Of a DNA stretch of 11,945 nt, positions 2,826-9,952 are shown one piece after another. The notes beneath the pieces were generated by a model. It searched no databases and was not told the DNA's origin. It saw only the letters and a list, made by a program, of their open reading frames with translations. Source of the DNA: Pseudomonadota bacterium (GTDB lineage: Bacteria > Pseudomonadota > Alphaproteobacteria > Rhizobiales > Rhizobiaceae); NCBI GenBank assembly GCA_003242525.1, contig QGUU01000034.1, positions 1-11,945 of the forward strand. The letters run 5' to 3'. The translations under genes were made by a program, and so were the position numbers. How positions within the stretch are numbered: the stretch's first letter is position 1; each line of letters opens with the position of its first letter.

Positions 2826-4643
<1,818 letters not shown>

Positions 4644-4671
4644 TCAATTGGTCTGATGACGAAAGGAGCTG

Positions 4672-4711
4672 GCCGTGGGCAACCCGCCCTGGCGGCATCG
4701 ACCGCCGGGCG
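4672..4711 (-). promoter_or_regulatory. Leucine attenuator: competing hairpins between leader ORF and leuA
   Basis: Three overlapping hairpins can be drawn on the minus strand. Segment 1, CGCCGGGC (4731-4724, at the end of the leader ORF), pairs with GCCCGGCG (4710-4703). That second segment can instead form a 10-bp stem with CCGCC-A-GGGCG (4711-4685, one bulged A, loop TCGATG). The third segment can instead pair downstream as GCCG...GGGC with GCCC...CGGC (4696-4672). This 1:2, 2:3, 3:4 order is the layout of a transcription attenuator. After the last hairpin comes CAGCTCCTTTCG, only a weak T-tract, so the terminator is the weakest part of the reading. A further AAGGAGC/GCTCCTT pairing encloses the whole. 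Confidence 0.55.
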
Positions 4712-4716
4712 CTCCT

Positions 4717-4833
4717 TCAATGGGCCCGGCGATCGCCGATAAGGCCGAGAAGAAGCACGGTGGAGGAAAGCGCGCGCAAGGTCTGGCCGGTGAAGCCGGC
4801 TGGACGGGCAGTTTTGGTGCGGCGCGTCATCAT
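4717..4833 (-). CDS. leuL: Putative leucine leader peptide upstream of leuA
   Basis: A 38-codon ORF in the 329-base gap upstream of leuA, starting with two consecutive ATG codons (4833 and 4830); an in-frame ATG at 4845 would give 42 codons. It is very basic at first, then Leu-rich toward its end: the segment TVLLLGLIGDRR carries Leu codons CTT CTT CTC and CTT just before the stop, with two more (TTG and CTT) shortly before. The stop is followed at once by competing hairpins and then leuA, the expected place for a regulatory leader peptide. There is no Shine-Dalgarno site; a -10-like hexamer ends 7 bases before the first ATG, so the RNA may be leaderless. At 38 codons it is long for an attenuator peptide. 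Translation is inferred, not shown. Confidence 0.55.
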   Translation of the reverse strand: MMTRRTKTARPAGFTGQTLRALSSTVLLLGLIGDRRAH

Positions 4834-4840
4834 GGGCGCT

Positions 4841-4869
4841 GTCATACAGGAGAGATTTCGCCGAGGCAA
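4841..4869 (-). promoter_or_regulatory. Putative leuA leader promoter
   Basis: TTGCCT (4869-4864), a 17-base spacer and TATGAC (4846-4841) lie directly upstream of the leader ORF. With the usual distance from the -10 box, transcription would begin at or one base before the ATG at 4833. The design matches the trp leader promoter in this window. If transcription does begin there, the ATG at 4845 cannot be used. Confidence 0.5.
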
Positions 4870-9801: not shown

Positions 9802-9834
9802 AAAACAAAAGGCCGCCGGACTTCTCCTGCGGCC
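9802..9834 (-). terminator. trp attenuator terminator
   Basis: On the minus strand GGCCGC (9834-9829) pairs with GCGGCC (9816-9811), with an inner GGA/TCC pairing and a GAAG loop, and is followed by TTTTGTTTT. It lies between the leader peptide and trpE(G). The competing antiterminator uses GCGGCC at 9871-9866 to capture the same GGCCGC; a third pairing between the Trp-codon stretch GGTGG and CCGCC (to 9863) completes the attenuator logic. Confidence 0.85.
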
Positions 9835-9872
9835 AACCAAAAATCTTACGCGCATGCGTTTCGGCGGCCGCT

Positions 9873-9917
9873 CTAGCTGGCCCACCACCAAGCGATCTTG
9901 GAAGAACGAATGCTCAT
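9873..9917 (-). CDS. trpL: trp operon leader peptide
   Basis: A 14-residue [17 protein letters not shown], with three consecutive TGG codons near its end and a TAG stop. It lies 113 bases upstream of the trpE(G) start codon and just before the antiterminator and terminator. Its length, the WWW position and the gene downstream match the known Sinorhizobium meliloti trpL arrangement, in which ribosome stalling at Trp codons decides between read-through and termination and the terminated RNA (rnTrpL) is itself a small RNA. No Shine-Dalgarno site precedes the ATG, and the -10 box ends 6 bases before it, so the RNA is probably leaderless. The terminated transcript would be about 115 nucleotides (9917 to about 9802). 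Confidence 0.9.
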
Positions 9918-9923
9918 GCGCAT

Positions 9924-9952
9924 TCCATAGCGACGAACGCCAAGGCGTGCAA
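9924..9952 (-). promoter_or_regulatory. trp leader promoter
   Basis: TTGCAC (9952-9947) and TATGGA (9929-9924) are separated by exactly 17 bases on the minus strand. Six bases separate the -10 hexamer from the leader ATG at 9917, so transcription is expected to begin at or next to the A of the start codon. Confidence 0.65.

Follow-up and report, generated by a model that had tools for sequence, protein, structure and literature searches.

A leucine-rich leader ORF preceding leuA, together with three RNA helices, S1, S2, and P0, that covary among relatives, was found in the 11,945-nucleotide stretch of Rhizobiaceae DNA analyzed here (the window). Judging from these sequence comparisons, we favor, with little more than even confidence, the interpretation that this leader is a proteobacterial LEU element that would act by translational attenuation, in which occupancy of the run of Leu codons would be decisive and a stalled ribosome would uncover the leuA Shine-Dalgarno (SD) sequence.

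The leuA leader ORF and its promoter-like sequence

The leader region is located on the minus strand, between a gene for an AbrB-family membrane protein and leuA (Table 1). The most likely start of leuA is the ATG at 4577 rather than the ATG at 4610 of a longer ORF, as GGGAG (4590-4586) is found at SD distance before 4577 only. The promoter-like sequence and the 38-codon ORF ending in Leu codons, both of which an earlier note on this DNA had pointed out, are present as it described them, and the encoded peptide ends in VLLLGLIGDRRAH. TTG at positions -34 to -38 and TA at -11 to -16 upstream of an in-frame ATG were present in all 104 leader loci and at two of 1,026 other ATGs (a duplicate of the window's own locus was left out of the loci but left among the control ATGs). 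Across these 104 close loci the leader measures 36 to 41 codons from ATG to stop, and a loose search of a wider set recovered the promoter geometry in 85 of 94 sequences. As this spacing places the transcription start at about the ATG, the leuA leader mRNA is predicted to be leaderless. The 121-nt fold of the window itself had a z value of -2.36, better than expected by chance, and 3 of 200 shuffled sequences folded equally well.

Table 1. Features of the leuA and trp leader regions in the window
Feature	Position	Strand	Sequence or landmarks	Remarks
Promoter-like sequence	4841..4869	-	TTGCCT (4869-4864), 17 nt, TATGAC (4846-4841)	Geometry shared by leader loci
Leader ORF	4717..4833	-	MMTRRTKTARPAGFTGQTLRALSSTVLLLGLIGDRRAH; ATG 4833, stop TGA 4719-4717	38 codons plus TGA; Leu-rich tail in relatives
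Leu-codon run	4741..4758	-	GTGCTTCTTCTCGGCCTT	Putative control codons and P0 5' strand
P0 5' strand	4744..4751	-	UUCUCGGC	Best helix of the window itself, 2 G-U pairs; weak by folding
P0 3' strand	4586..4593	-	GCCGGGAG	Contains leuA SD GGGAG; family covariation
S1 5' strand (segment 1)	4725..4735	-	CGATCGCCGGG	Within leader ORF; covariation
S1 3' strand (segment 2)	4699..4709	-	CCCGGCGGTCG	Covariation
S2 5' strand	4711..4718	-	GAAGGAGC	Overlaps stop codon, in S1 loop; covariation
S2 3' strand	4662..4669	-	GCTCCTTT	Covariation
Hairpin 2:3	4691..4706	-	GGCGGT (4706-4701) with GCCGCC (4696-4691)	Excludes S1; weak covariation
Hairpin 3:4	4672..4696	-	GCCG..GGGC-loop-GCCC..CGGC; core GGGCGGGTTGCCC (4689-4677)	Covariation of short forms
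leuA	2826..4577	-	Start most likely 4577	2-Isopropylmalate synthase
trpL leader before trpE(G)	9802-9943	-	Promoter-like TTGGCG / TATGGA, ATG 9917, hairpin 9834-9811	

Distribution of the leader

The closest named leuA relatives of the window's genome belong to Mesorhizobium. leuA loci were drawn from 25 genomes of the genus, among them that of the window, and from 80 loci in named records, and the window's own locus was recovered again in another search; a total of 111 loci were collected, with a leuA anchor in 106 and five distant loci lacking one. An upstream ORF ending in a Leu run and a GDRR-like tail was identified in 105 of the 106 anchored loci, bearing out the expectation of a conserved Leu-ending ORF in relatives, although these loci are not independent, as the window's own is present twice and nine rows duplicate the sequence of another over the leader stretch. 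The exception (L026) has a run of N at the leader position, and in one leader (L078) the Leu run is shortened. Named loci with the leader include those of Mesorhizobium, Ensifer, Phyllobacterium, Nitratireductor, and Ochrobactrum/Brucella.

An RNA model (R1), built on an alignment of 48 relatives (A1) with stem 1:2 as its sole structure, found matches in 187 of 199 family genomes (E ≤ 0.01), covering 103 of 109 genera, with a single match per genome except in three. A second search of 10 of the 12 missed genomes under relaxed filters recovered a clear match in one (G096, E = 4e-4) and weak matches in two (E = 0.01 to 0.02); of the remaining seven genomes, six are 1.0 to 2.0 Mb in size. In an order-level sample R1 matched 14 of 249 genomes, of which nine were from the same family and four from one genus of another family, while the last (G456) is probably a chance match, no Leu leader having been found in a scan of its locus, L153. 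A broader model (R2) matched 5 of 289 genomes in a class-level sample, including the window's own; leuA adjoins three of the other four matches, and the match at L264, where a scan found no leuA, is probably false.

No Rfam 15 family reached its gathering threshold in the window or in 20 related loci. A subthreshold match on the opposite strand to MH_s10, described as a Mesorhizobium sRNA (PMC5596092), was rejected (20.2 bits of 81, E = 0.073; no gathering-level match in the 20 loci). A 38-amino-acid leaderless small ORF of S. meliloti was likewise set aside, as the account in PMC10117765 places it upstream of leuC and not leuA. No earlier description of a rhizobial leuA leader was found among the matches listed; subscription journals lay mostly outside this search, so an earlier account is possible.

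Conservation of the Leu codons

All 100 diverse relatives have at least three Leu codons, and 99 have at least four, among the 12 codons preceding stem 1, the leader frame having been chosen by Leu count. In 98 of the 100, this frame is in the same register and its stop falls within the S1 loop; in the remaining two, the usual frame has an equal Leu count. CUU and CUC account for 433 of 549 leader Leu codons, compared with 124 of 287 in six long ORFs of the window. The letters of the Leu codons change with those of their partner at the leuA SD, as in L166, where CTT CTC TTA CTT (codons assigned by eye) faces AAGTAAGAGA.

Stems S1 and S2

The hairpin 1:2 of the earlier note is better drawn as an 11-bp stem, S1 (Table 1), in which all 528 cells were paired across the 48 rows of A1. 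In an alignment of 100 diverse sequences (A3), 99.5% of 1,099 cells were paired, both sides had changed in 7 of the 11 pairs, and 50 cells were double changed, compared with 16.8 ± 2.8 in shuffles. As A3 was fitted to S1, partner swaps between sequences were used as well; these gave z values of 12.2 for the 100 sequences and 8.6 for 47 sequences of <75% identity (kinship among sequences inflates this and the other swap tests reported here, and the nonredundant sets reduce but do not remove the inflation). Of the three stems for which covariation had been anticipated, 1:2 thus covaries strongly. In the window, CGGCGATCGCCG (4738-4727, minus strand), at the start of S1, forms a perfect palindrome that is also found in many aligned relatives and is absent from the Ensifer-type rows.

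Two helices, S2 and P0, were not on the list in the earlier note. In S2, AAGGAGC immediately after the stop codon of the leader pairs with GCTCCTT some 40 nt farther downstream; this helix was paired in no RNA model or alignment model used. It was paired in 98.2% of 333 cells in A1 and in 87.9% of 694 cells in A3, where 35 cells were double changed, compared with 10.9 ± 2.5 in shuffles. Partner swaps, for which the region was extended by 18 nt so that 3' strands past the model end were included, gave z values of 9.4 (100 sequences) and 6.6 (47 nonredundant sequences), with none of 200 swaps as good; when S2 was slid by +3, its covariation score was similar (0.240 versus 0.249). Variants in relatives include GGGGC:GCCCC, GGAAGC:GCTTCC, and AGAGAGC:GCTCTCT. 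Pairing of the Leu run with the post-stop AAGGAG is not claimed (z = 1.6 in the 100 sequences, reached by 10 of 200 swaps; z = 2.3 in the 47 nonredundant sequences, reached by 3 of 200).

As the 5' strand of S2 lies inside the S1 loop, S1 and S2 would together make up an H-type pseudoknot, which is plausible from its loop lengths of about 7, 1 to 2, and usually 15 to 30 nt. The two stems would presumably form together and not in turn.

Predicted pairing of the Leu run with the leuA Shine-Dalgarno region

A leuA start could be placed in 94 of the 100 sequences, at a median distance of 91.5 nt past the element; for the six that were dropped, the start search gave none. The Leu run paired better with the 24 nt preceding leuA of its own sequence (base stem P0) than with those from other species, both in the 94 sequences (15.89 versus 14.43 ± 0.25, z = 5.8) and in 42 nonredundant sequences (15.74 versus 13.69 ± 0.39, z = 5.3), and none of 300 swaps was as good in either set. 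Four control windows farther upstream gave z values of 0.8 to 2.2, and the reversed SD gave 1.4 to 1.7. P0 is illustrated by CTTCTTCTC:GAGAAGAAG, TCTCTTACTT:AAGTAAGAGA, and CTCGCTT:AAGCGAG.

In nested folding, that is, by a model without pseudoknots, forcing the Leu run open lowered the cost of opening the SD by a mean of 1.33 kcal/mol across the 94 sequences, compared with 0.03 kcal/mol for an upstream mask and -0.33 kcal/mol for a mask from the S1 start. Gains of more than 1 kcal/mol were obtained in 41 of the 94 with the Leu-run mask and in 10 and 7, respectively, with the two controls. In the window itself P0 has 8 bp, two of them G-U, and the Leu-run mask gains 0.40 kcal/mol, compared with 0.23 and 0.67 for the controls; as this is no better than the controls, P0 of the window rests on the family evidence and the 8-bp helix. 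Of three relatives from the same genus, two (L005 and L032) became worse under the Leu-run mask, while the third (L025) gained 5.6 kcal/mol.

The covariation of S2 and of the base stem on the leuA SD points to control of translation, which the earlier note had named as one possibility. In the mechanism proposed, the Leu run of the leaderless ORF would be complementary to the leuA SD region, and the S1/S2 pseudoknot, lying between the two, would bring them together. With leucyl-tRNA plentiful, leader ribosomes would pass quickly and leave the Leu run mostly free, so that P0 would form and leuA would be poorly translated; with leucyl-tRNA scarce, a ribosome stalled on the Leu codons would cover the run and free the SD, allowing translation of leuA. 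The comparisons show the conservation, the leaderless geometry, and the covariation of S1, S2, and P0; we infer the translation of the leader ORF, the leucine-dependent stalling, and the direction of the response.

Hairpins 2:3 and 3:4 and transcription termination

Three mutually exclusive hairpins had been proposed for this leader. Exclusion holds between 1:2 and 2:3 and between 2:3 and 3:4, but 3:4, which is located in the long pseudoknot loop, is compatible with both S1 and S2. Hairpin 2:3 covaries weakly (z = 4.0 in the 100 sequences; z = 2.1 in the 47 nonredundant sequences, reached by 3 of 200 swaps). Hairpins at the place of 3:4 beat shuffles (none of 100 as good), and half-swaps of 3:4-type hairpins gave z values of 4.1 (100 sequences) and 5.1 (47 nonredundant), with none of 200 as good. 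This covariation is, however, that of a hairpin that is short in most relatives, for example GCC-N4-GGC, with a score of at least 12 in 30 of the 100; the long GGGC...GCCC form was seen by eye in 3 of 48 A1 rows (L002, L033, and L010). The lack of a good T-tract in the window, already remarked upon, extends to relatives, as at least five T in an 8-nt window just past the element were found in 7 of 94 loci and at least five T among 8 nt scored from the GCTC end in 3 of 105. An automatic terminator scan found nothing at the leuA or trp leader; as it missed the trp hairpin, it was not used as evidence. Since the 3:4-type hairpin is mostly short and a T-tract is found in 7 of 94 loci, termination is not supported as the output of the leuA leader. 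The leucine attenuator logic read from the window alone is supported as regards a conserved Leu leader and competing RNA structures and is not supported as regards a terminated transcript.

Two forms of transcriptional control are nonetheless serious rivals to translational attenuation. The first, which we consider unlikely, is Rho-dependent attenuation, in which stalling or release of the leader ribosome would alter the access of Rho between the leader and leuA. It is counted as serious owing to a precedent in the same family, an upstream ORF of S. meliloti reported to control premature termination of a DUF1127 gene through what may be a rut site (PMC12218461). No intrinsic terminators are apparent at leuA leaders, and Rho might also come into play once leuA translation is blocked; against this, C in the spacer is not notably above G (0.292 versus 0.268 over 94 loci), and Rho alone would not account for the fact that the Leu run and the leuA SD covary.

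The second, that of the earlier note and in our view distinctly unlikely, is classical ribosome-mediated transcription attenuation with 3:4 as the terminator. It is taken seriously as 3:4 shows covariation, and it would account for a leader with Leu codons and for the exclusion between S1 and 2:3; the nearby trp leader moreover shows that a terminator hairpin is used in the same genome. The scarcity of T-tracts and the shortness of most 3:4-type hairpins speak against it, as does the geometry, by which a ribosome stalled at the beginning of the Leu run would not get as far as segment 1, although one at the final Leu codon would extend into it; S2 and P0 would also be left unexplained.

Comparison with the actinobacterial LEU element

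The LEU element was described upstream of actinobacterial leuA as a leader with a Leu run, a pseudoknot, a base stem between the Leu run and the leuA SD, and an alternative hairpin, its mechanism being left unsettled (PMC1262725, Seliverstov et al. 2005). The rhizobial leader resembles that description in its Leu-run leader ORF, its pseudoknot helices, its base stem between the Leu run and the SD, and a related leuA. The Leu-run leader and the two pseudoknot helices were all found in rhizobia, and the base stem was found family-wide and is weak in the window. The published account in PMC1262725 covers Actinobacteria. Rhizobial leuA begins a median of 91.5 nt past the element; the rhizobial leaders of 36 to 41 codons are also longer than four actinobacterial leaders of 13 to 16 codons (counted from the start codon closest to the Leu run), and the letters differ.

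In the same source, mutations of the Leu codons of S. coelicolor leuA are cited as not fitting classical attenuation, and a protein is argued for, with the orthologue of ML1624 as the candidate regulator (PMC1262725). Applied to rhizobia, that proposal for Actinobacteria would make the element a protein-binding site on the leuA mRNA, of which the leader ORF is merely a part of the structure. It would agree with the strong conservation at the RNA level and with the report that the Leu codons have no effect in Streptomyces (PMC1262725). We hold it to be improbable for the rhizobial leader, where Leu codons are kept before S1 in all 100 sequences while their letters follow the SD partner and where the position of the promoter suits leaderless translation in all 104 loci.

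The S. meliloti trp attenuator (trpL, rnTrpL, and peTrpL) begins with a leaderless trpL mRNA (PMC7298713) and shares with the leuA leader a leaderless ORF with a regulatory codon run before a biosynthetic gene. Action of the leuA leader RNA or peptide in trans, as for rnTrpL or peTrpL and as the earlier note had suggested, is very improbable despite this likeness of a leaderless small ORF to trpL (PMC7298713), since the poor conservation of the N-terminal half argues against a peptide whose function is conserved: codon positions 1 and 2 there vary nearly as strongly as position 3 (0.85, 0.84, and 0.92 for positions 1, 2, and 3 in 23 unique 38-codon leaders and 0.91, 0.83, and 1.00 in 50 unique 39-codon leaders). 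The trp leader of the window has a hairpin with a T-tract, whereas its leuA leader has no such combination and has S2 and P0 instead. In the trp leader a G+C-rich hairpin is followed by TTTTGTTTT, and the geometry looks leaderless, as in the leuA leader.

The enterobacterial leucine operon leader (Rfam Leu_leader) also has Leu codons in its leader peptide, and its likeness to the leuA leader, by description only, consists in these. In translational attenuators of the ermC type, stalling of the ribosome on the leader likewise exposes an SD farther downstream, the signal being a drug and the SD being held by a separate hairpin; in the leuA leader, by contrast, the codons that do the sensing would also serve as the anti-SD.

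Related elements in other lineages

A short leader with S1 and S2 was found upstream of leuA in Nocardia, Tsukamurella, Nonomuraea, and Microbacterium (for example, GACCGGC:GCCGGTC), with base-stem helices of varying quality; no such element was found upstream of leuA on a Streptomyces plasmid. R2, the rhizobial RNA model, matched one of these four actinobacterial elements (E = 0.0088). A similar plan, identified partly by eye, precedes leuA in Cupriavidus, in L254 and L279 (outside the class), in Shinella (L235), and in two alphaproteobacteria (L265 and L266).

A crude scan for a Leu leader with an S1-like helix matched 17 of 63 leuA upstream regions outside the main rhizobial group, compared with 5 of 63 reverse complements and 0 to 6 in five mononucleotide shuffles; by eye, 8 of the 17 are LEU-like, 4 belong to a related type, and 5 appear to be chance matches, and most of the 63 regions were without such an element. 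P0-like pairing with other letters was found in Cupriavidus (11 bp), the alphaproteobacterial locus L265 (9 bp), and Microbacterium (10 bp). In eight loci beyond the main group (L254 and L279 were left out, as no start was placed), pairing between the leuA SD region and the 32 nt preceding S1 was 19.6, compared with 16.0 ± 1.1 in swaps, of which 1 of 300 was as good; the best helix in Nocardia lies outside the Leu run, and that in Tsukamurella has 5 bp.

The best match of LeuA among solved structures was 1sr9 (683 bits), which we take to be the Mycobacterium tuberculosis enzyme, far above 3rmj (64 bits), presumably that of Neisseria. Transfer of leuA with its element from Actinobacteria is not claimed, the backbone of the LeuA tree being weak.

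With confidence that falls just short of even, we extend the proposal to a widespread type of translational attenuator in Actinobacteria, Rhizobiaceae, and some other alpha- and betaproteobacteria. Its sensing codons would be the anti-SD of the regulated gene, synonymous Leu codons would track the leuA SD with leucine kept, and a pseudoknot would hold the strands close; this would supply a mechanism for the LEU element. If true, rhizobia and their relatives would have a common leucine sensor, one that Rfam 15 did not recognize in the window and the 20 loci scanned. An element known from Actinobacteria since 2005 with no settled mechanism would be extended into Proteobacteria, where the sequences are numerous and divergent enough for helices to be tested. 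As the base stem covaries, the mechanism can be tested sharply and cheaply, by a synonymous swap of Leu codons and restoration in the SD.

Other leader arrangements were also seen. In one Sphingomonas and three genomes of the f56 family (L232, L262, L270, and L273), Leu-rich leaders with LRLIRP- or LRLTRP-like ends run into a CCCTTAG/CTAAGGG hairpin and are possibly a separate attenuator type. In Cupriavidus (L233), T-runs (CCGTTTTTCC...CCGTTTTTG) are located downstream of the LEU-like element and may reflect an added layer of transcriptional control. On a plasmid of Shinella zoogloeoides (L235, positions 470-553), a divergent leuA (52% identity) has its own copy of the element, with the leader tail ALLLLLLRLIGDRWA.
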